Positions 1,897 to 45,088 of a DNA stretch of 59,347 nucleotides are shown here, piece by piece (positions within the stretch are counted from its first letter, which is position 1; each line of letters starts with the position of its first letter). The stretch covers positions 211,684 through 271,030 of the forward strand of contig JAHCML010000004.1 of NCBI GenBank assembly GCA_019192455.1. Reading direction: 5' to 3'. The position numbers and the translations under genes are program-made. The stretch comes from Alphaproteobacteria bacterium SS10. Lineage in GTDB: Bacteria; Pseudomonadota; Alphaproteobacteria; TMED2. Under the pieces are notes generated by a model. That model was not told where the DNA came from. It did no database searches and was given only the letters and a program-made list of their open reading frames with translations.

Positions 1897-2683
1897 CCCA
1901 CGCCACCTCCATCGCCAATGGTGGTATCCCCGTTTTGCTGCGGATCAGATTGAGCCCACAGCGCGCCATACCCGGCGCTTTTGCATCGTATTGATTGGCG
2001 GCACTGGGCCGCGCGGCCACCGACCAGCTGTTCCAAGCGGTTGGTATGCTGCCCGCCCCCTGATCCCGTAGCAGCAGGAGCGGCAGTCGGTTTCGCTCTG
2101 TCGCCAGGTTGAGGCGCCGCCCCACCGTGATGTCGAGGCCTGCCACGGCCCGGTCATCAAGGTCGGCGATCAGGCCGCCCACGGCACCGCTATCCAGTGC
2201 CTCTTCAAGCGTGAACCAGATGTCGCGAAGGTTATGGCACTGCACATGGATGATCTGCCGCGCGCTGATGCCTGTGCAACGCAGGCCCCAGCCATGGAGG
2301 CGACCAAGATCATGCTCGGTGCGTCCGCCGCTTAAATAGAGGATGGGATGATGCGCCGTCTCTGCCGCCAGCATTATGCGCCGCATGAGGTTACAGCCTA
2401 GGGCCAAAGCCGCGCCGCGATCGGCGGCTTGATGGGCTGCGATATCCTGTACCCGGTCACGCCGACGAAGCATGTCGGGCAGCCGTTCATCCAGGAGGTC
2501 AGAACCGCTGGACCAGCCCCAGGGATGTGTCTCACCATCGCTTAGGCTAATTGCCTTGTTCTGGTTTTGGTTCTGAACCGTATCGGAAAGTCCGGCGGAT
2601 TTAAGCGCAGAAAGCGCCATGCTTCGCCCCGGGCTTGTCGATAAATTCCTATTTATATCAGTGCTTTGTGTTTTTCCCTGCAT
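1751..2683 (-). CDS. imuA: ImuA, RecA/SulA-like mutasome protein
   Basis: About 310 residues. The first half contains HPWGWSSGSDLLDERLPDML and a RecA-like core (LYLSGGRTEHDLGRLHGWGL), as expected for ImuA, the first gene of imuA-imuB-dnaE2 cassettes. ImuA is thought to modulate RecA and assemble the mutasome. Candidate starts are GTG 2686, ATG 2683 and ATG 2620 (the last begins MALSALKSAG); I use 2683 and cannot exclude 2620. The 3' end overlaps imuB by ~146 nt in a different frame, which is long for a coupled pair, but both frames look like real family members across the overlap. A LexA-box-like site lies about 53 nt upstream. Confidence 0.85.
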   Translation of the reverse strand: MQGKTQSTDINRNLSTSPGRSMALSALKSAGLSDTVQNQNQNKAISLSDGETHPWGWSSGSDLLDERLPDMLRRRDRVQDIAAHQAADRGAALALGCNLMRRIMLAAETAHHPILYLSGGRTEHDLGRLHGWGLRCTGISARQIIHVQCHNLRDIWFTLEEALDSGAVGGLIADLDDRAVAGLDITVGRRLNLATERNRLPLLLLRDQGAGSIPTAWNSWSVAARPSAANQYDAKAPGMARCGLNLIRSKTGIPPLAMEVAWDDQADRLHLVAELADHGTPATVAARHKPGSGQLFTLPFGKGQRRRHVA

Positions 2684-2735
2684 CACACTCTACCATCGGC
2701 GACCGGATGCCAATGAAGGCCGCCTGCAGGTATAT

Positions 2736-2750
2736 GTTGCTATTTTGTTC
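2736..2750. promoter_or_regulatory. LexA-box-like operator upstream of imuA
   Basis: GTTG-N7-GTTC at 2736-2750 is one mismatch from the alphaproteobacterial LexA operator GTTC-N7-GTTC. It sits about 50 nt upstream of imuA, where an SOS operator of this cassette is expected. The match is short, so its position is as important as its sequence. Confidence 0.5.
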
Positions 2751-2825
2751 TTATTTGAGTCAAGCAGATTTCGACTCAACATAAAGAGCAGAGGGATTCC
2801 AAAAGCTTAAGGTGAGGGAGATGGG

Positions 2826-3461
2826 TTAGGGCATCTGGCGGCGCTGGGTGTCGGGGCCATCATTGGCCGCCGGGCCAGCTTGGTCGCCAGGGCCGCCACC
2901 CTTGCGCTTATCCCGTTGCTTGGCGACTAGCTCCATCGTCTCATGTTGGGCAATGCCAGCCATGATGATGTCGCCCGCAGCCTCCGGACCTTCCCAGCCG
3001 CTGACCTTGGCCCATTTGCCATTCTCCAAATCCTTATAGTGGCTGAAGAAGTGCTCAATCTGCTCTCGCAGGGGCTGTGGCAGGTCCTCGAAGTTCTGAT
3101 ACTCGTCATAGGCCGGGTTAATGCGGCTAGCTGGTACGGCGAGAATCTTTTCATCCACCCCGCCATCATCAGTCATCATCATGACGCCAATCGGCCGAAC
3201 CGCGATGACAGCGCCGGAATTGATCGGAATATCTGAGACCACCATCACATCAATCGGGTCGCCATCACCGCCCAGCGTGTTGGGGATGAAGCCATAATTC
3301 ACCGGGTAATGCATGGAGGTGCCAAGGATGCGGTCCACCACCATGGCGCCGCTTTCCTTATCCATCTCATACTTCACCGGGTCTGAGCGTACCGGGACTT
3401 CAATCACCACATTGATATCGCCAGGCGGGTTTTCACCGGCGGGGATTTTGTCCAAACGCAT
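2826..3461 (-). CDS. ppa: Inorganic pyrophosphatase (family I), copy 1
   Basis: Soluble family I pyrophosphatase, which hydrolyses PPi to two phosphates in the cytoplasm and pulls biosynthetic reactions forward. The family signature DGDPIDVMV and the active-site stretch YEMDKESGAMVVDRIL are intact. The start at ATG 3461 (MRLDKIPAGENPPGDINVV) is supported by AAGGG about 10 nt upstream and gives 211 residues. The core matches the usual ~175, followed by a ~30-residue Gly/Pro/Gln-rich tail that copy 2 lacks. It lies 93 nt downstream of the second pyrophosphatase gene on the same strand. The metal-binding aspartates look complete, so both copies are probably active. Confidence 0.93.
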   Translation of the reverse strand: MRLDKIPAGENPPGDINVVIEVPVRSDPVKYEMDKESGAMVVDRILGTSMHYPVNYGFIPNTLGGDGDPIDVMVVSDIPINSGAVIAVRPIGVMMMTDDGGVDEKILAVPASRINPAYDEYQNFEDLPQPLREQIEHFFSHYKDLENGKWAKVSGWEGPEAAGDIIMAGIAQHETMELVAKQRDKRKGGGPGDQAGPAANDGPDTQRRQMP

Positions 3462-3554
3462 CGCTTTTGACCCTTGGGATTGTTTCGATTTCACGAACAA
3501 TAAGGGCTTGTCTAGAAAGCGTGGGCGCTAAAACGATGATGAATTGGTGACGGT

Positions 3555-4082
3555 TCAACCGGTGACGCGCTTGATGCCGTCGAGGATGAATTGGCCAGCC
3601 TCTTCAGGGCCGCCCCAACCTTCAACTTTGGCCCATTTGCCGTCTTCTAAGTCTTTGTAGCGACTGAAGAAATGCTCGATCTGATCACAGAGCGGCTGGG
3701 GTAGGTCCTTATAGGTTTTGTACTGGCTGAAAATCGGGCTGACACTGTTGGCTGGTACGGCGAGGATCTTCTCATCCTCACCGCCATCATCGACCATCTT
3801 CATCACACCGACGGGGCGTGCCTTAATAAACGCACCGGAATTAATCGGGATATCGCAGACCACCATCACATCCACCGGGTCACCATCACCGGAGAGGGTG
3901 TTGGGGATGAAGCCGTAATTCACCGGGTAATGCATGGAGGTGCCAAGGATGCGATCAACGATCAGGGCGCCGCTCTCCTTATCCATCTCATACTTAATTG
4001 GGTCGGAACGAACCGGCACCTCAATGACCACATTGATTTCGCTGGGGGGATTATCACCTGGCGTGATGCGTTCGATTTGCAT
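3555..4082 (-). CDS. ppa: Inorganic pyrophosphatase (family I), copy 2
   Basis: Second family I soluble pyrophosphatase, 175 residues from ATG 4082 (MQIERITPGDNPPSEINVV), the normal bacterial length. It has the metal-binding signature DGDPVDVMV and the stretch YEMDKESGALIVDRIL. It is closely similar to copy 1 over nearly the whole length, so the pair is a tandem duplication. The open frame extends upstream to 4223, but the additional N-terminus is not family-like, overlaps the divergent glutaminase start and is best left out. The 117-nt gap to the glutaminase gene should hold divergent promoters. It probably leads a two-gene transcript with copy 1. Confidence 0.93.
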   Translation of the reverse strand: MQIERITPGDNPPSEINVVIEVPVRSDPIKYEMDKESGALIVDRILGTSMHYPVNYGFIPNTLSGDGDPVDVMVVCDIPINSGAFIKARPVGVMKMVDDGGEDEKILAVPANSVSPIFSQYKTYKDLPQPLCDQIEHFFSRYKDLEDGKWAKVEGWGGPEEAGQFILDGIKRVTG

Positions 4083-4199
4083 AATGAACAGGTCCGGGAT
4101 TACGGGAAGGTTGAAGTTCTGTTTTGTTGCGGCGCAGCATAACCGCAGCCCCCCTGGCTCGGCCAACAAAAAATAAGCAAGACGCGACCCTTTGCCATC

Positions 4200-5126
4200 A
4201 TGAGTGCTGCCATCAACTATCAAGAGCTGCTAAACCGGATTGAGGAGGCGATCCAGCCCCTCTATGGCCGGGGGAAGGTGGCCGACTATATTCCGGCCCT
4301 GGCCGAGGTGGCGCCGCGCCAATTTGGTATGGCGCTCCGCACCGTGGATGGGGAGGTGGCAAGTGTGGGGGCGGCCGCCCATGCCTTCTCAGCGCAGAGC
4401 ATTACCAAGCTGTTCGCCCTACAACTCGCCATCGTGCGGGGCGGGGATATGGTTTGGACCAAGGTGGGTAAAGAGCCATCGGGCGACCCGTTCAATTCTC
4501 TCGTCCTGCTAGAGCATGAGGGCGGTTTCCCCCGCAACCCGTTCATCAATGCCGGTGCGCTGGCGATGATTGATCTGCTGTTAAGCGCTGGCCGGTCACC
4601 GGATCAGTTGATCTTGAGCTATCTACGCATGCTGTCCGGCAATGCTGAGATCACGATTGATGAGGCGGTGGCCCAATCAGAGTGGGAGCATGCGAATGTC
4701 AACGCGGCCCTAACCCATTTCATGAAGGGGCATGGCGTCATCGATCATGATGTGGATACGGTGCTGAAGGCCTATTGCCGGATGTGCGCCATCACCATGA
4801 GTTGTGAGGATTTGGCCGCCGCCACCCAGGCGCTCGCCAATCGCGGCTTCTCCTCAGTGACCGGAGAGACCGTCCTGCCCGCGCGCCAAGCCCGGCGGAT
4901 CAATGCCGTCATGCTGACCTGCGGTACCTATGACAGTGTCGGCAGCTTCGCCTACCGCGTCGGCCTGCCGGCCAAGAGCGGCGTCGGCGGCGGCATCGTT
5001 GCCGTGGTGCCTGATAAGATGACGCTCGCCGTCTGGTCCCCAGAACTAGACCGCTCCGGCAACTCCTATATCGGCACCGCGGCGCTCGAGCAGTTCACGA
5101 CCATGAGTGGTTTGTCGGTGTTCTAA
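4200..5126 (+). CDS. glsA: Glutaminase (GlsA/YbaS type)
   Basis: 308 residues, the usual length of bacterial serine-type glutaminases, which convert L-glutamine to glutamate and ammonia. The catalytic SxxK motif of the beta-lactamase-like fold is present as SITK (Ser67-Lys70). Other family landmarks are GGFPRNPFINAGALAM and the C-terminal PAKSGVGGGIVAVVP. The start at ATG 4200 places the first helix as expected. It is followed at 49 nt by an arginase-family gene and then ornithine cyclodeaminase on the same strand, so the group probably serves release of nitrogen from glutamine and arginine. No signal peptide is visible, so it should be cytoplasmic. Confidence 0.93.
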   Translation: MSAAINYQELLNRIEEAIQPLYGRGKVADYIPALAEVAPRQFGMALRTVDGEVASVGAAAHAFSAQSITKLFALQLAIVRGGDMVWTKVGKEPSGDPFNSLVLLEHEGGFPRNPFINAGALAMIDLLLSAGRSPDQLILSYLRMLSGNAEITIDEAVAQSEWEHANVNAALTHFMKGHGVIDHDVDTVLKAYCRMCAITMSCEDLAAATQALANRGFSSVTGETVLPARQARRINAVMLTCGTYDSVGSFAYRVGLPAKSGVGGGIVAVVPDKMTLAVWSPELDRSGNSYIGTAALEQFTTMSGLSVF

Positions 5127-5175: not shown

Positions 5176-6096
5176 ATGATCGATCTTATTCCCATTCCGA
5201 TTGATATCAGCGGTTCCCAACGTGGCTGCTTGATGGGGCCTGATGCCATTAGTGTGGCGGGGCTGGAAAAGCAGCTGCGCGCCCTTGGTCATGAGGTAAC
5301 CCGACGCCCGACGGTGATCCCGGCGGGGCTGCCGATGGAGGGGGCAGGGCCAAGCAATGGCTCGGCAACCTTAAAGGATATGGATGCGGCCCTCGCCTGG
5401 ATTGAGGCGATGCATGAGCTAAAGCTCAGCGAGGCCACAACCCTGTTTCTGGGCGGTAATCACCTGCTATCGGCGGGCACCATCCCCGTGGTGGCCAAAC
5501 GGGCCGAGACGGCGGGCAAGCCGCTCTTCGTCCTCTGGCTTGATGCCCATTCGGATTTCCACACCCTGGGCTCAACCACCAGCGGTAATTTGCATGGCAC
5601 GCCGGTTGCCTATGTGACCCAGCGCGATGGGTTTGGCGACGGCTTCCCCGATCTGCCCGCCGCCGTTCCGGCTGAGCGGTTCTTTATGATGGGCCTGCGC
5701 TCCGTCGACGGACCAGAGCGGGCAGCCCTGCGCAATTTTGGGATTGAGACGGCGGATATGCGCCGGATTGATGAGGAGGGGGTGGCCCCCATCCTTCGCC
5801 AGTTCTTGGAGAAGGTGAACCATGCCGGCGGTACACTGCATGTCAGCCTGGATATCGACTTCCTCGACCCGGAAATTGCCCCCGCCGTTGGCACCACCGT
5901 GCCGGGCGGTGCCACCTTCCGCGAGGCGCATCTGATTATGGAGATGCTGCATGATAGCGGTGCCGTCAGCTCGGTCGATCTGGCAGAGCTGAACCCGATA
6001 CTGGATGAGCGGGGCAAGACCGCCCAACTCGCCGTCGACCTGCTGGCCAGCCTGTTTGGCAAATCAGTCCTCGACCGAAAGACCACCCGTTTTTAA
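5176..6096 (+). CDS. rocF: Arginase-family ureohydrolase, probable arginase
   Basis: 306 residues from ATG 5176. The manganese-site motifs of ureohydrolases are mostly intact: DAHSD (Asp123, His125, Asp127) and SLDIDFLDPEIAPAVGT (Asp226, Asp228). The first motif reads GGNH (Asn95-His96) where GGDH is usual, so the His ligand stays but the neighbouring aspartate is replaced. Arginase hydrolyses L-arginine to ornithine and urea; the ornithine cyclodeaminase 44 nt downstream would use that ornithine. Agmatinase or another guanidino substrate is possible, but the neighbour and overall sequence favour arginase. The frame is open from 5107, but the upstream part overlaps glsA and is not family-like. 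Confidence 0.85.
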   Translation: MIDLIPIPIDISGSQRGCLMGPDAISVAGLEKQLRALGHEVTRRPTVIPAGLPMEGAGPSNGSATLKDMDAALAWIEAMHELKLSEATTLFLGGNHLLSAGTIPVVAKRAETAGKPLFVLWLDAHSDFHTLGSTTSGNLHGTPVAYVTQRDGFGDGFPDLPAAVPAERFFMMGLRSVDGPERAALRNFGIETADMRRIDEEGVAPILRQFLEKVNHAGGTLHVSLDIDFLDPEIAPAVGTTVPGGATFREAHLIMEMLHDSGAVSSVDLAELNPILDERGKTAQLAVDLLASLFGKSVLDRKTTRF

Positions 6097-6140
6097 GCTC
6101 CCTAACAGCCGTTCAATCCTACTTACTAGAAAGACCGCCG

Positions 6141-7211
6141 ATGCCCCCCGTGCCACCGCCCAAGGACAGCAATATCGTCCCCTTTGTCAGTGTCGACAAC
6201 ATGATGAAGCTGGTGCTCTCCATCGGTATTGAGACCTTCCTGCAAGAGCTTGCGGGCTATGTGGAGGAGGATTTCAAACGCTGGGAAAGCTTCGATAAAA
6301 CGCCGCGCCTTGCCGCCCACTCTAAGGAGGGGGTGATTGAGTTGATGCCGACCAGCGACGGCAACACCTATGGCTTCAAATATGTGAACGGCCACCCGAA
6401 GAACACGCGTGAAGGCCTGCAGACCGTGACCGCGTTTGGTGTCCTATCTGACGTCTACACCGGCTATCCGGTCCTGTTGACCGAGATGACGATCCTAACC
6501 GCGCTGCGGACCGCCGCCAGCTCCGCCGTTGCGGCGAAGTACCTGGCGCCCAAGGATGCCAAGACCATGGCCCTGATCGGCAATGGCTCGCAGTCCGAAT
6601 TCCAGGCCATGGCCTTTAAGACCATTCTGGGGATTGAGACGGTGAGGCTTTACGACACGGACCCTGAGGCGACGGCCAAGTTCCAGCGCAACATGGTGGA
6701 TAGCGGGCTAAACGTGGTTGCGTGCAAAAGTGTGGAAACCGCCGTTGAGGGTGCAGAGATCGTCACCACGGTCACTGCGGATAAGCAATACGCCACCATC
6801 CTGACCGATAACACGGTGGGGACAGGTATACATATCAACGCGATCGGTGGTGATTGCCCGGGCAAGACCGAACTTCACCGCGATATCCTTCTGCGCTCAG
6901 ACATCTTTGTTGAGTTCACGCCGCAGACCCGGATTGAGGGTGAGATCCAGCAGCTGGCGAAGGATCACCCGGTGACCGAGCTTTGGCAGGTGATTACCGG
7001 CAAGGTTGAGGGCCGCACCTCGGCAAACCAGAACACCCTGTTTGATGGCGTTGGTTTCGCGACGGAGGATTTCTCCGCGCTTCGTTATGTGCGGGATAAG
7101 ATCGACGGCACCGAGTTCTACGACCGCCTCGATATGCTGGCCGATCCGGATGATCCGCGTGACCTCTTCGGCATGCTGCTCCGCGCGCAGGCGAAGCAAG
7201 GGGCCGGTTAG
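6141..7211 (+). CDS. ocd: Ornithine cyclodeaminase (mu-crystallin family)
   Basis: 356 residues. The dinucleotide-binding motif appears as ALIGNGSQSEFQA, and the catalytic aspartate segment as INAIGGDCPGKTEL. The enzyme converts ornithine to proline and ammonia with tightly bound NAD. It belongs to the longer ornithine cyclodeaminase type, with an ~80-residue N-terminal substrate region containing ELMPTSDGNTYGFKYVNGHP. It is the last gene of glutaminase-arginase-cyclodeaminase, which together route arginine to proline. Its stop overlaps the stop of the convergent sulfotransferase gene by 4 nt. A related lysine cyclodeaminase or ketimine reductase activity is the main alternative. Confidence 0.9.
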   Translation: MPPVPPPKDSNIVPFVSVDNMMKLVLSIGIETFLQELAGYVEEDFKRWESFDKTPRLAAHSKEGVIELMPTSDGNTYGFKYVNGHPKNTREGLQTVTAFGVLSDVYTGYPVLLTEMTILTALRTAASSAVAAKYLAPKDAKTMALIGNGSQSEFQAMAFKTILGIETVRLYDTDPEATAKFQRNMVDSGLNVVACKSVETAVEGAEIVTTVTADKQYATILTDNTVGTGIHINAIGGDCPGKTELHRDILLRSDIFVEFTPQTRIEGEIQQLAKDHPVTELWQVITGKVEGRTSANQNTLFDGVGFATEDFSALRYVRDKIDGTEFYDRLDMLADPDDPRDLFGMLLRAQAKQGAG

Positions 7212-8056
7212 GCTGGCTTCTCATCCTTGGTCGGGGCGGATGAAATCACATTCGCCTTTGAGCCCTTAAGGTTGCGCCAGAAGTTTTCTTCCGCGAACCG
7301 TTTGAACAAATCCGGTGGCAGGACGGTTTTGCGGTCCTGGATCCCAACCTTCTTGCGCACCGTGTGCAGGTTGCGAACGCCTAGCTGGTTGTCAAACGCC
7401 TCGGCGCTGTATTCCACATTGTCGAAATCATGCTCGAACTCTGGCTCGCCGATGAACTGATAGATTAGCTTCAGCACGTCTTTCGGTTGAGAGACGAGAT
7501 GCGCGTAATCGACGAGTAGTAGGCGGTCGGCATAATCACTCCAGCACGCCTCACGCAGGGCCTGATAGGCGAAGCCGACAAGGCGGTTCGGGCGGGCGAG
7601 GGTATCGGCGCGGGAGTAGACGGTGGCCCGCTCATCCCAGCTGTTGAACAGGCGAGTATTCTCAAAATTGTTGGAGCGATATTGCCGCTCTAGGCTGTCG
7701 ATGATCCAAGATAGGTCACGGACACAGGCGATGACCTTGAAGTCCTTGTTGAACAGGGCATCAAGGTCGGCGAGGCGGGTGGTCCAGGCACGGTTGGTGT
7801 CGAACACCACATCCACCTGCTTAGGCAGCCCAGCATAGTAGCTGTCGAACAGGCCACGCAGCATGCGCTTGCGGGTGTCGTCATCGACCATGGGCGCCAT
7901 CTCAGTGCCCGCAGAGACGTTATCGATCAGCGTACCAAACAGGCCGCCAACTGGGCTGGTCATACCGGCATGAAAACGCGGGTTCTGCTTTAGGATGGCC
8001 GACAACAGGGTCGAGCCAGAGCGGGGCAGGCCAGAGATGAAGTGATAGGTGGTCAT
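7208..8056 (-). CDS. Sulfotransferase family protein
   Basis: 282 residues from ATG 8056; the frame opens three codons earlier with a TTG. The PAPS 5'-phosphosulfate loop is GLPRSGSTLLSAIL near the N-terminus, and the 3'-phosphate-binding region is CVRDLSWIIDS near the middle, both standard for cytosolic-type sulfotransferases. The acceptor cannot be inferred from sequence. It stands alone between convergent ocd and the upstream hydroxy-acid dehydrogenase gene on the same strand (92 nt gap), with no PAPS-synthesis or glycan genes adjacent. No signal peptide or membrane segment is visible. Confidence 0.82.
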   Translation of the reverse strand: MTTYHFISGLPRSGSTLLSAILKQNPRFHAGMTSPVGGLFGTLIDNVSAGTEMAPMVDDDTRKRMLRGLFDSYYAGLPKQVDVVFDTNRAWTTRLADLDALFNKDFKVIACVRDLSWIIDSLERQYRSNNFENTRLFNSWDERATVYSRADTLARPNRLVGFAYQALREACWSDYADRLLLVDYAHLVSQPKDVLKLIYQFIGEPEFEHDFDNVEYSAEAFDNQLGVRNLHTVRKKVGIQDRKTVLPPDLFKRFAEENFWRNLKGSKANVISSAPTKDEKPA

Positions 8057-8148
8057 GTGCGCCAACCAATTGTGATCACGGGCAAATTCTGTGCCCCGTG
8101 ACCTAGCACGCCGTGGCTGGCTTATCTAGTCAAACGCGCCTAGCCAAC

Positions 8149-9297
8149 TTAGTCCCGGAACCGCAGGTTTGAGCGTGATAGCTCACTGATCGAGGTGCAG
8201 CCCATCAGCTGCATGTCGCGGATAAGCTCTTCGCGCATCAACTCCAGGGCCCGCTCAACCCCAGCTTGCCCAGCGGCGGCGAGGGGGAAGAGATAGTAGC
8301 GGCCAACGCCAACGGCCTTGGCGCCGAGGGACAGCGCCTTCAGCACATGGGTGCCCCGGGTGACGCCGCTATCCATCATCACGTCCAGCTTATCGCCGAC
8401 AGCATCAACGATCTCAGCCAGCTGATCGAAGGAAGAGCGGGAGCCGTCAAGCTGGCGGCCACCATGGTTTGAGATGACGATACCGGTACAGCCAATGTCG
8501 ACCGCCCGTTTTGCGTCCTCAACGCTCATCACGCCTTTGAGGCAGTACTGGCCATCCCATTCCTTCACCATCTCGGCGACGTCGTCCCAGTTCATGGATT
8601 TATCGAGCATTTCGGTGAAGTACTTACCGATTGAGACGGCGCCACCGCCCATATCCACATGCTCATCCAGCTGTGGCAGGGCGAAGGGCTCATTGGTCAT
8701 GTAGTTGATGCCCCACATGGGCTTGGTCGCGAATTCGAAGATACCACCGAGGGTCAGCTTCATCGGGATTGAGAAGCCGGTGCGCAGGTCACGCTCACGA
8801 TTGCCGCCGGTAATCGTGTCGACGGTCAGCATCATGACCTCAATGCCGGCCTCTTTCGCCTTCTGCATCATGGCGCGGTTTAGGCCGCGATCTTTGTGGA
8901 AATAGAACTGATAGACCTGCGGGTTCTTGTGCTTCTTCTTCAGCTCGGCAGCACTAACGGTGCCGAGGGAGGAGACGCCAAACATGGTGCCATAGTTCTC
9001 CGCCGCGGCGGCGACGGCCCGTTCACCCTGATGGTGGAATAGACGCTGTAACGCGGTGGGGGAGCAATAGACGGGCAGGTCCAGCTTCTGGCCCAGGACC
9101 TCAACCGAAAGGTCAATCTCTTCAACGCCGCGCAGGACGTTGGGCACCAGGTCACAGGTGTCGAAGGAAGATGTATTGCGATCCTTGGTGATCTCATCAT
9201 CGGCAGCGCCGTCGATGTAGTTAAAGATCGGACCGGGCAGGCGCCGCTTGGCGAGTTTGCGGAAATCCTCGTGATTGAAGCAGCGGTTTAGGCCCAT
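8149..9297 (-). CDS. lldD: FMN-dependent alpha-hydroxy-acid dehydrogenase (L-lactate dehydrogenase-like)
   Basis: 382 residues with the TIM-barrel features of the FMN-dependent hydroxy-acid oxidase family. The N-terminal NYIDGAADDE (Tyr27), the substrate Tyr region QFYFHKDR and the catalytic histidine motif SNHGGRQLDG near residue 280 are all present, as is the C-terminal flavin phosphate region AKAVGVGRYYLFPLA. Such enzymes oxidise L-lactate or related 2-hydroxy acids and pass electrons to quinone or oxygen. L-lactate dehydrogenase is most likely; mandelate or other hydroxy acids are possible. A nested inverted repeat about 25 nt upstream is a candidate operator. The lldD symbol is by family only. 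Confidence 0.85.
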   Translation of the reverse strand: MGLNRCFNHEDFRKLAKRRLPGPIFNYIDGAADDEITKDRNTSSFDTCDLVPNVLRGVEEIDLSVEVLGQKLDLPVYCSPTALQRLFHHQGERAVAAAAENYGTMFGVSSLGTVSAAELKKKHKNPQVYQFYFHKDRGLNRAMMQKAKEAGIEVMMLTVDTITGGNRERDLRTGFSIPMKLTLGGIFEFATKPMWGINYMTNEPFALPQLDEHVDMGGGAVSIGKYFTEMLDKSMNWDDVAEMVKEWDGQYCLKGVMSVEDAKRAVDIGCTGIVISNHGGRQLDGSRSSFDQLAEIVDAVGDKLDVMMDSGVTRGTHVLKALSLGAKAVGVGRYYLFPLAAAGQAGVERALELMREELIRDMQLMGCTSISELSRSNLRFRD

Positions 9298-31124: not shown

Positions 31125-32936
31125 TTAAGATGATAGCGCTGCTGGATCGTCTAGCCGCACAACCTTCAAGCTCTGCTGCTTGCCCCGGATGTCAACCTCA
31201 ACGGGGTCAAAGCCCATCACGCCCCAGCCCGCTTTCTCCATCAGCTCAACCGAGGCAACAACAGGCGTGTTCCATTCCTTGGCGAGGCTCTCAAGTCTCG
31301 CTGCCGCATTGACCACATCACCAATGGCCGTTGGCCGCCGTGCTTGCCCTGCACCCAAATCGCCAAGTACGGCAGTGCCAACATGAACACCGATGGCCAT
31401 GCGCAGCGGCTCCTCAAGCCCCAGACGCTCATCCTGATTCAGCATATCCAAGGCCTCGAGCATGTCTGTTAGGGCGTTTAGCGCATTCTTGCAGCAATCC
31501 GAGGCGTCAACGGTCTCAGCATCTGACCGGTCCATAATATCCTCGGCACCGAATAGGGCCATGATGCCGTCGCCCATGAATTTGTCGACGCGACCACCAT
31601 GCTTGCGGATCGCGGATTGCTGCCAGGTGAAATACTCGTTCAGCAGGAAAATCGTGTCATAGGGCAGGCGGTCTTCGCTGAGGCTAGTGAAGCCGCGGAG
31701 GTCTGCGAACAAAACCACAATCTCACGCTCAACGCCGAGGGAGCGGCTATCGAACTTTTTGATCTTCTTCATGGCGTCTTTGGCCGCCACGAGTTGCACA
31801 ATTGAGAGCTGGCCAACAGGGCGCAGCTGACAAGCAAGCCGAACGCCTTTGGGCGCCCCAATCTTCTCTAGTAGTTTGGCCTCTGCTGGTTTGGGGTCCG
31901 GCTGTGGGTCGGATTGCGGGCCGATATGAACGCGGCAAGTGGAGCATCGCCCACGACCGCCACAAACCGAGGTGTGCGGAATACCATTGGACCTGCTGAC
32001 CTCAAGCAGAGACGCACCGCGCAAGGCTGATACGGTTCGTCCCTCGGGGTATCGAACCTTTACCCGTGGCCCTAAATGCCGAACCCAAATGGCGATCAAT
32101 GGTGTGATGAAGGCCAGCGCGGCAAAGCCGACATACATCCAAATCCAGATGACGGATTTGTCCTTAATCCGACCATAGGTCCAGGGCTTGCTAACGCTTG
32201 TAGCGCTAACGTTGGTGACCGCTACTGTCGTAAAGGATGCGGGTATTAAGAGCGGCGATGGTTGAACAACCTCTGCCCGCTCAGCGCGTCGCAGCTTGCG
32301 TTCGGCCTCAATCGTTTTGCCAGCCATCACATATCCGGCAATGGCAAGGGTCGGCACCAGAATGGCAACCGCGTGCCAAACCATCACGGTACGCTGATAC
32401 CAGGGGTATAGGTTCAACCAGAAATGCATACCGATACAGGCATGGCCCCATACCACGAGGGCAAGCAGCACCGGCAGCCATGGCTCCCTTGGCCAGTAGC
32501 CTGGAATGGTTTTCCGATAGGTGTCGTTGAAGTCGATTAGCCAATTGCTGATGCGGGTGTCGGCCAAATGCTCAATCAGCAGGATGGGGATGGCCACCCC
32601 CAGCAGTAGCTGGATCAGCTCGCGCTTTGGCAGTCTGATGCTGTGGCGGCTAGCCGTCTTACCAAGTGCCAAAAACACATGGGTTATGAGCGCGCCGTAA
32701 AGCACAACCGTGCCGACGGGATGCCGCGTTACAACCTTCCGCCATTCCTGAACCCGCTCCATCAGATCAATGTCGAGGATGCCTAGGCTGTGGTTCAGAA
32801 GATGGGTGAGAACATAGACAAACAGGATAATGCCGCTAACCAAGCGGCCACGCCGCGCAATGGCGTCGAGGTCCCATTTTTTCGCACTCGATGGCTTCGG
32901 GCTTTCTGATGTGCCCGTTGTTCCCCCAATACTCAT
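31125..32936 (-). CDS. cyaC: Membrane class III adenylate cyclase with [2Fe-2S] ferredoxin domain
   Basis: 603 residues in three parts. Residues ~30-285 hold six predicted membrane helices with many histidines (His45, His49, His86, His123, His165, His171, His188), as in cytochrome b-like heme domains. Residues ~292-385 are a ferredoxin domain with Cys325, Cys331, Cys334 and Cys369. Residues ~405-595 are a class III cyclase: metal aspartates Asp412 and Asp456, adenine-selecting Lys452 and Asp540, transition-state Asn543 and Arg547. All catalytic residues are intact, so cAMP is the likely product. A heme-bearing, quinone-responsive relative (CyaC) is known from Sinorhizobium. The YHS gene lies 13 nt upstream in the same operon. 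Confidence 0.85.
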   Translation of the reverse strand: MSIGGTTGTSESPKPSSAKKWDLDAIARRGRLVSGIILFVYVLTHLLNHSLGILDIDLMERVQEWRKVVTRHPVGTVVLYGALITHVFLALGKTASRHSIRLPKRELIQLLLGVAIPILLIEHLADTRISNWLIDFNDTYRKTIPGYWPREPWLPVLLALVVWGHACIGMHFWLNLYPWYQRTVMVWHAVAILVPTLAIAGYVMAGKTIEAERKLRRAERAEVVQPSPLLIPASFTTVAVTNVSATSVSKPWTYGRIKDKSVIWIWMYVGFAALAFITPLIAIWVRHLGPRVKVRYPEGRTVSALRGASLLEVSRSNGIPHTSVCGGRGRCSTCRVHIGPQSDPQPDPKPAEAKLLEKIGAPKGVRLACQLRPVGQLSIVQLVAAKDAMKKIKKFDSRSLGVEREIVVLFADLRGFTSLSEDRLPYDTIFLLNEYFTWQQSAIRKHGGRVDKFMGDGIMALFGAEDIMDRSDAETVDASDCCKNALNALTDMLEALDMLNQDERLGLEEPLRMAIGVHVGTAVLGDLGAGQARRPTAIGDVVNAAARLESLAKEWNTPVVASVELMEKAGWGVMGFDPVEVDIRGKQQSLKVVRLDDPAALSS

Positions 32937-39094: not shown

Positions 39095-39958
39095 TTAATC
39101 GCGCTTGCCGAAGCCGTAGGTGCCTTTTTGCGCCTGATCTGCCGCAACTACCGCCGCACGCTTGGCCAGTAAGCGATCTTGAGCGTCCATGGCGAGGAAG
39201 GTGCCGGTATGCTCTGGCATGTGACCGATCACCTGCTTCCACGGGCCGTGCTTGGCGTGGTCGCGGGCGTAGTCATCGAGAGCGACCTGCCCATCATAGG
39301 TTCGATCAACGACAAGTTTGAGCGTCGTCAGTAGGCGTTGGCCACCTTGTGAATCAACCTGAGGTGCCGCCATGGCAAGCCCATCGGCAGCAGCACCGGT
39401 CGCCACATTATCTGGGGTCATAACGCGAGCTGCTTCACGCAGGGTGACCAGGTCGCGGGCAAAGGCAGCCTGATCGGTTGTGCCGTTGCGATTGCCTTCC
39501 CAGGCCTCGACCACCTCGTCTTCTGCACCCTTGAAGATCATATCGCCTGCGATGTCCGTAAGGCGTGCGCGCTCAGCTTTTGAGAAGGTTGAGGAGACGA
39601 GCGGTAGATCAACCAGTGATTTCACGAGTGAGTCTGCCTGCAAGAACTGCTCAGCATTGGTCAAGCCAGAGCCAACAGGCGTAAACAGGGTCGCCATTGA
39701 GTTTGCCTGGCTCAGCTCTTCGCCCAAGGTTGGATTGCCGTTGTTGTGAGCGCCCAATAATGGTTCAGCCGCCAAGTTTTGCAGGACAAGCTCGAACTTT
39801 GGGCCTCGGGAAGGCTGTCCGGCAATGTCCGCCATGCGCTGTGCCTGCCTTGGCTCCGCCTCGGCGAAGCGCTCAATCAGTGGCTGATCGTCTGCGGTTG
39901 CGTGACCTTGGGCGATCAGTTTGGTGGCGAGTTGTGCGCCAAGTGTTGGTGCGGTCAT
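39095..39958 (-). CDS. Hypothetical protein, paralogue of the product at 40184
   Basis: 287 residues; a strong GGAGGA lies about 8 nt before ATG 39958. No signal peptide or membrane span; the sequence is Ala-rich and helical. It is clearly related to the divergent protein encoded at 40184-41119: shared blocks include an N-terminal LIERFAEAEP / LLDRFATEHP, KAER / MAER plus LxDxA, FARDL / FAKDL, ATGAAADGLAMAAPQ / ATGRATEALEAVAPQ, and the C-terminal HGPWKQVIGHM...FLAMDAQDR / YGPFKEALAHG...FLSLDALDR. No known domain is recognised. The two starts share a 225-nt intergenic region. Confidence 0.62.
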   Translation of the reverse strand: MTAPTLGAQLATKLIAQGHATADDQPLIERFAEAEPRQAQRMADIAGQPSRGPKFELVLQNLAAEPLLGAHNNGNPTLGEELSQANSMATLFTPVGSGLTNAEQFLQADSLVKSLVDLPLVSSTFSKAERARLTDIAGDMIFKGAEDEVVEAWEGNRNGTTDQAAFARDLVTLREAARVMTPDNVATGAAADGLAMAAPQVDSQGGQRLLTTLKLVVDRTYDGQVALDDYARDHAKHGPWKQVIGHMPEHTGTFLAMDAQDRLLAKRAAVVAADQAQKGTYGFGKRD

Positions 39959-40183: not shown

Positions 40184-41119
40184 ATGGTGGGCAGCATGGT
40201 TGTATCGTTGATGGCTCGCACAAAACTTGGGGAAATGGCTGAACAAACTGGCCGTGTAACCCCGAAAGAAATCGAACTTCTCGACCGGTTTGCGACAGAG
40301 CATCCGGACCGAACTGCGCCGCTCGAAACGGCACTTCAGGAGCCCTGGCGCGGTGGCCCTGGCCCGGCTAGCTGGTACGAGTTTCAAGACCAGCCCCGCC
40401 AAAGTGATTCCATGGATAGCGGCATCACTGGTGAAAGCGAGGCACGCCTCGCTAAGAACCTTGCTGCCTGGTTCACCCCCGATGGTATGAACCAATCAGC
40501 CGTGTCCCGGTATCTGGAGCGTCGTGCTGTTGTTCGCACGCTGGTTGATATCGCCCCGACCGATCAGGCGTTCTCAATGGCTGAACGCGATGCCCTTCAG
40601 GATGCCGCCGCTAAGCTGATTGATACAAAAGAGCCTCTGGTTTCCCAGATGAGCTGGCAGATCGACTGGCAGCAAATCCGCGATGACAAACTGCCCGAAA
40701 GCCGCTTTGCTAAAGATCTCGGGGATCTCCAGGATGTGGTTCCAGCCTTCTCACCGACAGGGCTTGCCACTGGCCGCGCCACTGAAGCGTTGGAAGCAGT
40801 AGCGCCGCAGATGCGCACGCAAGAGGGTGTCAACCTATGGAACGCCCTGGGTCAAGTGGTGGCCGACGTTGAAGAGGGCATGCGGGTCGCTGATGATGGC
40901 GGTAAAGTTGCCTTCATCGCTGACCAGAGTGTTGTTGATCCGAACATTTATACCCGTGGCTATCGCAAATACGGACCTTTCAAAGAGGCGCTAGCGCACG
41001 GTAACACCAACATGGTTGGCATGTTCTTGAGCTTAGATGCCCTGGATCGTCATGAGAGCCGCCGCGAGAAAGCCGCGGCTAAAGATCAGACTGCGCGACC
41101 AGGCCCAGGGGGCCGTTAA
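40184..41119 (+). CDS. Hypothetical protein, divergent paralogue of the product at 39095
   Basis: 311 residues from ATG 40184, preceded by AAAAAGAAG; ATGs at 40196 and 40211 are alternatives. Helical, soluble, no signal peptide. It aligns along nearly its full length with the protein on the opposite strand at 39095-39958; the most conserved part is the C-terminal YRKYGPFKEA followed by FLSLDALDRHE. A Lys/Arg/Pro-rich tail follows. The stop codon lies inside a 14-bp palindrome. Divergent duplication with retention of both copies suggests a functional pair, but no role can be assigned. Confidence 0.62.
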   Translation: MVGSMVVSLMARTKLGEMAEQTGRVTPKEIELLDRFATEHPDRTAPLETALQEPWRGGPGPASWYEFQDQPRQSDSMDSGITGESEARLAKNLAAWFTPDGMNQSAVSRYLERRAVVRTLVDIAPTDQAFSMAERDALQDAAAKLIDTKEPLVSQMSWQIDWQQIRDDKLPESRFAKDLGDLQDVVPAFSPTGLATGRATEALEAVAPQMRTQEGVNLWNALGQVVADVEEGMRVADDGGKVAFIADQSVVDPNIYTRGYRKYGPFKEALAHGNTNMVGMFLSLDALDRHESRREKAAAKDQTARPGPGGR

Positions 41120-41348: not shown

Positions 41349-44300
41349 ATGGAACCCACACTATTTCGCTTCATCTGGCGCCATTCTAAGCGCGAACAGA
41401 TCATGGTGCTCTTGCTGACGCTGGCATCATTTCCGTTCCTATACATGACCTTGGAGCTGCCCAAGATTATCATCAATGATGCGTTGAGCGGCGAGGCGGG
41501 GCCACATGATTTGGGCTTCTTGAGCGTTAGCCCAGTTTCATACCTCATGCTGCTTTGTGCGGCTTTGTTCGTCCTGATCCTGATCTCCGGTTTTCTGAAG
41601 ATGCGGGTCAATGTGTACAAGGGCGTCTTGGGCGAGCGGATGCTGCGCCGCTTGCGGTTCCAAATGATGGACCGGGTCCTGCGCTTCCCGATGCCGCAAT
41701 TCCAGCGCACCAGCCAGGGTGAGATCGTCTCGATGGTGGCATCGGAGACGGAGCCGCTGGCCGGCTATATCGGTGATGCCATTGCCCTGCCGGCCTTCCA
41801 GGGCGGCACGATGCTGACCATCCTGATTTTTATGTTTGTGCAGGACCCAGTCTTGGGTCTGGCCGCCACGGCAATGATCCCGATCCAGGCGGCGGTGATC
41901 CCACGCCTGCAACGACAGGTGAACCAGCTGGGTAAGCAGCGGGTGCTCAAGGTACGTCGCCTATCGGAAGAAATTGGTGAGAGTGTGTCTGGCATCCGGG
42001 ATATCCGGATTAATGGCACCGCGCGTTACACGCTCTCAGGTTTCTCCCAGCGGCTGGGCGAAATCTTCGGCATCCGCATGTCGATCTATCACAAGAAGTT
42101 CTTCATGAAGGGGCTGAACAACTTCTTGGGCCAGATGACGCCGCTCTCCTTCTATGCGATTGGTGGCTATCAGGTGATTCAGGGTGACCTGACGATCGGT
42201 GCGCTGGTCGCCGCCGTTGCCGCTTACAAGGACCTCGCTGCCCCGTGGAAGGAGCTGCTGAACTACTACCAACGGATGGCGGACAGCAATATCAAGTACG
42301 ACCAACTGCATGAGCAGTTCGTGCCGGATGAGCTGCTGGAGAAGCAGCTGCAGTACTGCCCAGGGACGGAGCCATTCGCCCTAGACGGCGTCATCTCTCT
42401 CAACAACGTTTCGCTTGCCTCCGCTGACGGTGTGCCGGTGTTCAGCAACCTCTCCCTAACGGTGGAAGAGGGGGCAACGATTGCCATCACCGGCACGGAT
42501 ACAACGGCGCGGGAGCGGTTCGTTGAGATGCTGACCAGGATCACCCCGCCTACTGGTGGTCGGATCCTGCTTGGCGATCAGGACATCGCGACGATACCCG
42601 AGACCATTCTGGGGCCGAATTTCGGCTATGTCGGGCCCGACAGCTACATCTTCAACGATACAATCTTCGACAATGTCTTCTTCGGCATGAAGACGACGCC
42701 CGACCTTGCTGGTGATGGCGGGAAACCAACCCTAAGCAGCGCCCAGGTTAAGGACGATAAAGAGGCGGGCAAACTATGGATGAAGGAGGCTGAGGCTTCC
42801 GGTAATTCCATCGATCCCTACACGGCTGATTGGGTAAATTACGAGAATATCGGCGCCCTTGATCAACAGGATGCCTTGAATTGGTGGTTGCAGGTTATCG
42901 AGGTGACCGGGGCAACAGAGACCCTGTTCAAGCTCGGCCTCGATACGGTCATTGATCCCAATGAATATGCCGGGATGGCGGCGCAGATTTTGGGGGCGCG
43001 CCAATATATTCGCCAACGGCTGACCACCCGCGATCAAGAGCACTTTGTCAGCCCCTTCGATTACCAGCGCTACAACACCTATGCCTCGGTGGCTGAGAAT
43101 ATCCTGTTCGGCACGCCGATGGATGATCGATTGGCGACCTCACAGCTCGCGCAGAATGATTACTGCCATTCAGTGTTTAAACGCTTCGACCTCGTTGAGC
43201 CGATCCAAGAGATTGGGCTGAAGCTAGCTGAGATGCTGGTGGAGATGTTTGAGGACCTGCCACCGGGTCATGAGTTCTATGAACAGTACAGCTTTGTTGA
43301 TGAAGAGGTGCTGGATCGCCTGCCAAAGATCCTGCGACAGGTTCAGTCCAAGGGGCGTTCTTCCCTTAGCTTGGACGAACGGAACCTACTGGCCAGCCTG
43401 ACCTTCGAGCTGCGGGTTGAGCGACATCGCTTGGGTCTGATCGATGAAGAGCTGCAGAACCGGTTGGTCGAGTTGCGGCACTACTTCCACGACAACTTGC
43501 CGGTTGAGTTGCGTGACGCCGTCGCGATGTTCGACCCGCATGACTACAACCCGGCGCTGAGCATCCGCGGCAACCTCCTCTTTGGTAAGGTGGCGTTCAG
43601 CCTCGCCGGTGCAAAGGAGAAGGTTGAGGCCCTCATTGATGAGGTGTTGGAAGATTTTGGCATTAAGGAGAGCGTGATCCTGCTGATCCGTGACCTGGAT
43701 GCGGGCGTTGGCGGCAGTAAGGTGCCAACCCTGGGCAGGCAGCGCATGGCCTTAGGCCGTGCCCTGGTTAAGCGGCCAAAGATTCTAATCGCGAATGCCC
43801 CGCTTCAGGCCATGGCAATTGATCAACGGGATGTGGTGCGCCAGCGCATTCGTAACCTGCTGCCCGATACCACCATCATCTGGCTGGACCAGGATATCGT
43901 TGATGATAGCGACGTCGATCGCCGCTTTGAAATCCGCGATGGTCGCTTGATCGAGACGATTGATGCCCAGTCCGATGTGGCCGCCGATATGACGAAGCCT
44001 ACAGCTTATGGCAACCAGACTGAGACCGCTGATCTTGCCCTCGCCGATGATCAAAGTGCCGAGGTGCGCTTGCTGGCGCAGGTGCCAATCTTTGCCCATC
44101 TACAGCCACAGCAGCTTAAGCTCTTGGCTTTCACAGCTGAGCGTTTGCAGTTCGAGGCTGGTGAAGCCTTCTACCAACCGGGTGACCAGCCAGACGGCGT
44201 CTATGTCGTCATTGATGGCATGGTCGATATGATCCGCGGTGTGCGGGGTGAAGAGATGGTGGTGGCCACGCTGGGACCAGAGGGGGTGATCGGTGAGCTT

Positions 44301-44519
44301 GAGGTATTGTCCAGTATCTCGCGTGTTGCCCTGATCCGGGCGGCAACCAAAGTCTCGGCCCTGCGCATTGATCCGATGGTGTTCATCAACTTTGTCCGCA
44401 ACGACCCGGAATTGGCCTTTGCCGTTATCCGTGGTATCGGCCTGCGTTCAATTGGCCGTGCCGATGAATGGCGCCAGGCCTCCAAAGATCTAGAAGATAA
44501 GGCCGGTGCCGCTGAGTAG
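41349..44519 (+). CDS. Degenerate ABC-exporter-like protein with cNMP-binding domain
   Basis: 1056 residues. Residues ~1-320 form an exporter-type six-helix membrane domain (LRFPMPQFQRTSQGEIVSMV is a typical coupling region). The nucleotide-binding domain (~345-870) is enlarged by about 350 residues and has lost its catalytic motifs: Walker A reads TGTDTTARE (no GKS/T), the Q-loop region YVGPDSYIF lacks Gln, the signature is PTLGRQRMALGRAL, Walker B ILIANAPLQ lacks the Asp/Glu pair, and the H-switch is WLDQDI. Residues ~905-1030 are a cyclic-nucleotide-binding domain with Glu983 and Arg992 (GELEVL, SRVALIRA). It probably cannot hydrolyse ATP; a cAMP-gated membrane protein is my inference. A peroxiredoxin gene follows. 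Confidence 0.82.
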   Translation: MEPTLFRFIWRHSKREQIMVLLLTLASFPFLYMTLELPKIIINDALSGEAGPHDLGFLSVSPVSYLMLLCAALFVLILISGFLKMRVNVYKGVLGERMLRRLRFQMMDRVLRFPMPQFQRTSQGEIVSMVASETEPLAGYIGDAIALPAFQGGTMLTILIFMFVQDPVLGLAATAMIPIQAAVIPRLQRQVNQLGKQRVLKVRRLSEEIGESVSGIRDIRINGTARYTLSGFSQRLGEIFGIRMSIYHKKFFMKGLNNFLGQMTPLSFYAIGGYQVIQGDLTIGALVAAVAAYKDLAAPWKELLNYYQRMADSNIKYDQLHEQFVPDELLEKQLQYCPGTEPFALDGVISLNNVSLASADGVPVFSNLSLTVEEGATIAITGTDTTARERFVEMLTRITPPTGGRILLGDQDIATIPETILGPNFGYVGPDSYIFNDTIFDNVFFGMKTTPDLAGDGGKPTLSSAQVKDDKEAGKLWMKEAEASGNSIDPYTADWVNYENIGALDQQDALNWWLQVIEVTGATETLFKLGLDTVIDPNEYAGMAAQILGARQYIRQRLTTRDQEHFVSPFDYQRYNTYASVAENILFGTPMDDRLATSQLAQNDYCHSVFKRFDLVEPIQEIGLKLAEMLVEMFEDLPPGHEFYEQYSFVDEEVLDRLPKILRQVQSKGRSSLSLDERNLLASLTFELRVERHRLGLIDEELQNRLVELRHYFHDNLPVELRDAVAMFDPHDYNPALSIRGNLLFGKVAFSLAGAKEKVEALIDEVLEDFGIKESVILLIRDLDAGVGGSKVPTLGRQRMALGRALVKRPKILIANAPLQAMAIDQRDVVRQRIRNLLPDTTIIWLDQDIVDDSDVDRRFEIRDGRLIETIDAQSDVAADMTKPTAYGNQTETADLALADDQSAEVRLLAQVPIFAHLQPQQLKLLAFTAERLQFEAGEAFYQPGDQPDGVYVVIDGMVDMIRGVRGEEMVVATLGPEGVIGELEVLSSISRVALIRAATKVSALRIDPMVFINFVRNDPELAFAVIRGIGLRSIGRADEWRQASKDLEDKAGAAE

Positions 44520-44548
44520 CGGTGCGGGGCAAGCTCAGTGAGGCAGTC

Positions 44549-45088
44549 ATGCTAACCGTTGGTGATCAGTTTCCAGCCTTCGCCCTTAAGGCCGTGGTCT
44601 CACGCGATCCAGACAATGCGGTGATTGAGCTGACGGAGCGGTCCCATCCGGGCAAGTGGAAGGTCATCTTCTTCTGGCCAAAGGATTTCAGCACGGTCTG
44701 CCCCACCGAGTTGATCGGCTTTGGTGATCTAAACGCGGCATTTGAAGAGCGGGGCGCCGTGCTCTATGGCGCATCGACCGACAGCGATGCCGTGCACCGC
44801 GCCTGGCGGGAGCATGAGCTGGCGCTGCGGGATATGCCCTATCCCATGATCTCAGATATCAAGCGGGAGCTGTCGGAAGCACTGGGCATCTTGCACCCTG
44901 ATGAAGGGGTTTGCCTGCGCGCGACCTATATCCTCGATCCCGATAATCGTATTCGCCATGTCTCAGTCTATGACCTGCTGGTCGGGCGTAACCCGCAAGA
45001 GGTTCTGCGCACGCTTGATGCGCTTCAGACGGATGAGAAATGCCCCTGCAACTGGCAGCGTGGCGAGGCGACCGCCACCGTTGCCTAA
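44549..45088 (+). CDS. AhpC/TSA family peroxiredoxin with CPCNW C-terminus
   Basis: 179 residues from ATG 44549, where GAGG lies 6-7 nt upstream; a GTG at 44522 is less likely. The peroxidatic Cys51 sits in DFSTVCPTEL. The C-terminus has Cys165 and Cys167 (DEKCPCNW), a three-cysteine pattern like mycobacterial AhpC, which is reduced by AhpD rather than AhpF. No ahpD or ahpF is in the window, so the reductant is unknown. It would reduce hydrogen peroxide or organic hydroperoxides in the cytoplasm. It starts 29 nt after the ABC/cNMP gene on the same strand, so they may be cotranscribed. Confidence 0.88.
   Translation: MLTVGDQFPAFALKAVVSRDPDNAVIELTERSHPGKWKVIFFWPKDFSTVCPTELIGFGDLNAAFEERGAVLYGASTDSDAVHRAWREHELALRDMPYPMISDIKRELSEALGILHPDEGVCLRATYILDPDNRIRHVSVYDLLVGRNPQEVLRTLDALQTDEKCPCNWQRGEATATVA

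Follow-up and report, generated by a model that had tools for sequence, protein, structure and literature searches.

TAP, TmrAB and TM287/288 carry a degenerate nucleotide-binding domain (NBD) on an ABC-exporter fold, with one functional ATP site left in each dimer. SUR1 and SUR2 use the exporter fold for regulation rather than transport, binding nucleotides and gating a potassium channel. HetC of Nostoc has a cyclic-nucleotide-binding (cNMP) domain at the N-terminus of its ABC exporter polypeptide; it also has a peptidase domain, and its ATPase is essential (PMC10986499). Whether the membrane domain of an ABC exporter is useful in the absence of ATP hydrolysis has long been disputed, largely on evidence from engineered truncations such as LmrA-MD, the membrane domain of LmrA without its NBD, which has been reported to work (PMC6155054).

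The window considered here, the whole stretch of 59,347 nucleotides of Alphaproteobacteria bacterium SS10 that was analysed, encodes a pseudo-exporter that can be compared with each of these proteins. It shares the folds of its membrane domain and NBD with the MsbA/ABCB-type (type IV) exporters but lacks an intact Walker A, Walker B, signature and H-switch, and it has in addition a 300-residue insert and a C-terminal cNMP domain. As in TAP, TmrAB and TM287/288, a degenerate NBD is mounted on an exporter fold, but here the Walker A and signature are unable to build an ATP site. The presence of a cNMP domain on an exporter polypeptide recalls HetC, although the domain is C-terminal, the ATPase motifs are gone and no peptidase domain is matched in Pfam. 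The likeness to SUR1 and SUR2 would lie in the regulatory use of an exporter fold, the difference in that no channel partner is known. Where LmrA-MD is an engineered truncation, here the motifs, or the whole NBD, have been lost naturally. No paper describing this family was found in the open-licence literature; SMb20813, named as the msbA homologue of S. meliloti (PMC10945364), may be its S. meliloti member. Annotation pipelines call the family proteins ABC transporters and at times ‘ATP-binding’, which is misleading.

Domain layout and lost catalytic motifs

The original prediction was of a catalytically dead exporter-like protein fused to a cNMP domain at 41349-44519, and these are the exact bounds of the open reading frame. 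The parts of the gene and its product are as follows, in coordinates of the window.

41349-44519 (+), whole gene, ATG start, 1056 aa: membrane domain, pseudo-NBD with duplicated insert, cNMP domain
41349-42323 (+), ABC-exporter transmembrane domain, residues 1-325 (Pfam ABC_membrane), where conservation in the family is highest
42366-42698 (+), N-terminal half of the pseudo-NBD, residues 340-450 (partial ABC_tran; AF2 model match to the ComA NBD)
42492-42515 (+), degenerate Walker A GTDTTARE, residues 382-389, against GxxxxGK[S/T]
42627-42644 (+), degenerate Q-loop YVGPDS, residues 427-432, with Pro430 at the Q-loop position
42699-43628 (+), insert in the NBD, residues about 451-760, ~300 residues, mostly helical, between Q-loop and signature
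42966-43223 (+), insert repeat unit A, residues 540-625 (hhalign to unit B)
43443-43694 (+), insert repeat unit B, residues 699-782, extending towards the signature region
43629-43964 (+), C-terminal half of the pseudo-NBD, residues 761-872 (homologue alignment and AF2 model match)
43722-43736 (+), degenerate signature VPTLG, residues 792-796, against LSGGQ
43782-43799 (+), degenerate Walker B ILIANA, residues 812-817, against hhhhDE, with Asn816 for Asp and Ala817 for Glu
43890-43892 (+), H-switch position, Gln848 (homologue alignment)
44145-44402 (+), cNMP-binding domain, residues 933-1018 (Pfam PF00027 cNMP_binding, E 1.5e-14)
44295-44297 (+), Glu983, cNMP pocket residue, Glu in 64/67
44322-44324 (+), Arg992, cNMP pocket residue, Arg in 67/67

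The exporter-type membrane domain and the NBD outline that had been predicted are both borne out by Pfam domains and AF2 structural matches. ABC_membrane matches residues 44-289 (E 3e-25), and the AF2 model matches TAP2 with an rmsd of 3.2-3.3 across 364-365 residues. The ABC_tran match is partial, taking in residues 366-468 (E 1.7e-7) and only positions 2-80 of the 137 in the profile. The NBD fold itself is present: the ComA NBD (3vx4) is matched over 227 residues within the model range 343-876 (Z 25.6, rmsd 2.5). The AF2 models were built from 13-18 sequences, and with this shallow alignment the pLDDT of the NBD is mostly 80-90.

None of the nine scored catalytic residues is kept in the window protein; Walker A, Q-loop, signature, Walker B and H-switch have been lost just as first described. 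Alignment confirms that motif loss is conserved among homologues, a complete catalytic set being present in none of the 66 aligned, and that across the family it is graded. The Walker A Lys is kept in 36 of the 66 and a Ser or Thr after that position in 6; the Walker B Asp is kept in 10, the Glu in 37, the H-switch His in 22 and the signature Gly in 5. No homologue has both Walker and signature motifs intact. The nearest is L098 (7941-11249), which alone combines a consensus Walker A (GSSDSGKS) with the Walker B Asp-Glu pair but has a broken signature (VSQTL). The proteins of S. meliloti, Azospirillum and Sulfitobacter are likewise degenerate in these motifs. The other copies that score zero, namely one from L035 together with L070 and L088, group with the window protein in the membrane-domain tree, in one clade of 11 rows (SH-aLRT 98). 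Since Lys, Glu or His is kept in some homologues, nucleotide binding or slow hydrolysis may be possible in those.

An artefact of alignment caused by the insert was considered as a source of the apparent losses; it is ruled out by a column-by-column check in the 66 homologues and countered also by the NBD fold, which spans 343-876 with the insert skipped. Nor is motif loss peculiar to the organism, as G....GK[S/T] is intact in all seven other ABC exporters fetched from its genome. Loss of ATPase function in the window protein is well supported by these alignments, and ATP-driven pumping by it appears unlikely.

The insert was absent from the original description of the protein. Its two units align with each other with E 3.8e-16 over 84 columns (hhalign), and it is thus internally duplicated. 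The unit pattern is ‘AR..LR...FD..xYN..ASVxENxLFG’, within which both units conserve FD..xYN..ASV.EN.LFG, a motif similar to the Q-loop/ENILYG segment of exporters. The first Q-loop segment was tried as a third copy; its profile similarity is only weak (hhalign probability 53-61%), and we therefore count two units. Modelled alone, the insert is predicted confidently (AF2, pLDDT 85). It has no match among solved structures (best Foldseek E 1.4), and a VIA search found no known fold, the best hit being CFTR NBD1 over 78 residues (Z 3.2); this is an absence of match and not proof of a new fold. Because of the ~300-residue insert with its two unit copies, the pseudo-NBD is not just an ordinary NBD that has eroded.

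Conservation in the family and its NBD-less relatives

With a cut-off of E <= 1e-60, a homologue is present in 128 of the 385 alphaproteobacterial genomes sampled, and in 116 of 314 when only the good ones are counted. In a phylum-wide sample a homologue was found in 28 of 398 genomes, 27 of the 28 belonging to Alphaproteobacteria. Named homologues lie on pSymB of S. meliloti and on plasmids of Azospirillum, Ruegeria and Sulfitobacter. The Oceanospirillaceae genome L035 has two dead-NBD copies near each other (2234-4858 and 5983-8589), both without a cNMP domain.

By column conservation, the membrane domain of the family is more constrained than the NBD, the opposite of what is seen in MsbA. 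Columns conserved at >=90% number 74/325 in the membrane domain and 8/223 in the two NBD halves (66 sequences), whereas MsbA controls from the same set of relatives give 42/318 and 101/240. Mean column identity tells the same story, at 0.67 for the membrane domain against 0.51-0.54 for the NBD in the family, and 0.59 against 0.73 in MsbA. In addition to this reversal, the family differs from the MsbA/ABCB-type exporters in forming a separate clade on a long branch.

Loss of the NBD motifs might be taken for the decay of a gene without function. This is scarcely credible. All 1056 codons are open, the pocket residues of the cNMP domain are kept, the membrane domain reaches 63% identity to relatives in other families (the NBD halves at most 35%), and the pseudo-exporter family recurs throughout the class in the company of the same partners. 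With the reading frame intact and the membrane domain conserved, the pseudogene reading was dropped.

Several genomes and roseobacter plasmids encode proteins of 381-497 aa that have the same membrane domain and no NBD. In the five compared, this domain is 39-46% identical to that of the window protein. The NBD-less relatives are:

L146:7540-8781, L147:7501-8700 and L148:7531-8730, in copper-resistance operons
L153:15866-17359 and L154:11848-13152, in copper-resistance operons of conjugative roseobacter plasmids
L149:7368-8594 and L150:4-1149, further NBD-less relatives

At least five lie in operons that also encode one or more of the following: a copper oxidase, CopB or other copper-binding proteins, a plastocyanin, a cytochrome c and a copper P-type ATPase. 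The NBD-less relatives form one clade (SH-aLRT 97) that is joined to the pseudo-NBD proteins (SH-aLRT 100), and the joint clade stands apart from canonical exporters in a quick tree in which the canonical branches are long. The same membrane domain is found, as a conserved natural series, in three settings: joined to an eroded NBD while the sensor is encoded separately, in one chain with both an eroded NBD and the sensor, and without any NBD. The idea of a dead ATPase held on a membrane domain is upheld and extended by the absence of a complete motif set, by conservation opposite to that of MsbA and by this NBD-less branch.

Known degenerate exporter halves usually retain Walker A and donate a usable signature. 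The window protein might be such a half, as in TAP, TmrAB and TM287/288, with a canonical partner from another locus supplying the power; canonical exporters are present in the genome, and the best structural matches are TAP and TM287/288, with homodimeric exporters scoring about equally. We regard this as quite improbable. Walker A and signature are both lost here, no canonical exporter was seen as a recurrent neighbour at 52 family loci, and L035 has its two dead copies close together, which fits a dimer of two dead subunits. The existence of NBD-less relatives also argues against a powered heterodimer.

The same relatives bear on a second alternative, in which the protein is a secondary transporter whose substrate is moved by an ion gradient while the NBD-like and cNMP domains regulate. 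Relatives consisting of the membrane domain persist in copper-resistance operons, and ion-coupled translocation has been reported for LmrA stripped of its NBD (PMC6155054). The LmrA results concern one multidrug exporter, however, and no ion-binding site is identified in the window protein, so we consider ion coupling unlikely. The first proposal, ‘a receptor, scaffold or gated channel, not a pump’, is to be qualified accordingly: the protein is unlikely to pump with ATP, but on the LmrA precedent its membrane domain may carry out ion-coupled transport.

The cNMP domain

In most loci the cNMP domain is a separate gene, encoding about 150-190 aa and lying directly downstream; at nearly all loci it is either fused or immediately downstream. 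Fused forms make up 14 of the 66 and cluster together, needing 3 changes on the tree where shuffling gives 13. Two fused proteins, L029 (6001-9504) and L031 (233-3775), carry an extra C-terminal GGDEF-like domain.

Structures of CRP show the Arg binding the phosphate of the cyclic nucleotide and the Glu binding the ribose. Glu983 and Arg992 had been predicted as retained phosphate-binding residues; both are present and near-invariant, but the contact with phosphate belongs to the Arg, that of the Glu being with ribose. The pocket consensus of the relatives is GE[IL]A[IL]LCDVPRTAT. The corresponding pocket in the window protein is GELEVLSSISRVAL, which contains Glu983, Arg992 and Val993, and residue 993 is Thr or Ser in 61 of 67 relatives. 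The two key residues lend partial support to the ‘live cAMP pocket’ once proposed, but with Val993 where most have Thr or Ser, the pocket is best called a putative one. The cNMP domain of HetC, another ABC exporter so equipped, binds ppGpp and not cAMP (PMC10986499), so the ligand here need not be cAMP.

A class III nucleotide cyclase fused to a 2Fe-2S ferredoxin domain is encoded at 31125-32936 (-) of the window. Its metal Asp, Asn and Arg residues are present by eye, and it is a possible source of cAMP. A link to an adjoining adenylate cyclase was also considered for the family and rejected, a cyclase similar to that of S. meliloti being found in only three of 52 loci, S. meliloti included.

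The near-constant cNMP gene, the GGDEF-like domain added in L029 and L031, and a dead NBD carrying a large duplicated insert would all suit a pure cyclic-nucleotide receptor or scaffold, one without transport activity whose task is to recruit or gate partners at the membrane, such as glycosyltransferases. The membrane domain is nonetheless the most conserved part of the protein, beyond the needs of a mere anchor, and we give this reading a low probability, the same as that of ion coupling.

Glycan genes and the proposed role

Neighbour genes were scored by tblastn at 52 loci. Glycosyltransferase genes of the GT28-like and GT4 kinds adjoin the pseudo-exporter at 31-32 of the 52, and a histidine phosphatase, a polysaccharide deacetylase, a PH-domain protein and a peptide-type importer are further frequent neighbours. 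Among 385 genomes, 122 have both the pseudo-exporter and the GT28-like gene, 6 the exporter alone, 3 the GT28-like gene alone and 254 neither. Presence and absence agree in 376 of the 385, and some of the discordant genomes are incomplete; the Fisher p of the co-occurrence is 1e-88, uncorrected for phylogeny. In 18 of 52 checked genomes both genes are present yet not within 10 kb on one contig. The genome of the window has its glycan set (importer, GT28-like, two GT4 and a second GT28-like) on contig C6 and the pseudo-exporter on contig C4. The gene-context case for a glycan link of the family is strong. Co-occurrence is evidence of a shared pathway and not of contact.

The gene context suggests that the protein takes part in building or exporting a glycan. 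The account that we favour, at about even odds, is of an ATP-independent membrane protein of exporter fold that serves a glycan pathway and is modulated through cNMP. On this account it would sit in the inner membrane, probably as a homodimer, and combine the membrane fold of an ABC exporter with an ATPase that does not work. The NBD would have turned into a structural or regulatory cytoplasmic domain, and the duplicated insert that enlarges it may offer partners a place to dock. The membrane part may help to move a glycan or its lipid carrier, with no ATP burnt at its own NBD, or may instead hold glycosyltransferases at the membrane. The cNMP domain, separate in most relatives and fused here, would bind a cyclic or other nucleotide and so switch the complex. 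Sequence data do not separate a translocator from a secondary transporter or a scaffold. Against the favoured account, the pseudo-exporter in this genome lies away from the glycan genes and has a peroxiredoxin next to it instead.

A broader proposal is more tentative and we hold it doubtful, if less so than ion coupling or a pure receptor: that an exporter-fold family gave up ATP throughout the class to become a nucleotide-gated, ATP-independent translocator of an alphaproteobacterial surface glycan, and that its NBD-less form was recruited to plasmid-borne copper-resistance operons. A glycan locus found in about one-third of sampled Alphaproteobacteria, Sinorhizobium and Azospirillum included, gains a named membrane component and a likely nucleotide input.

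The peroxiredoxin frame, of AhpC type, occupies 44522-45088 (+) of the window and starts 2 bases after the stop of the pseudo-exporter. It was rejected as a partner because it lies beside a family member in this genome only (52 loci), and a 311-aa upstream gene was rejected likewise, being seen in the genome of the window only (52 loci). Two neighbouring open reading frames, at 39095-39958 (-) and 40184-41119 (+) of the window, have no Pfam match above cut-off and are alike by eye.
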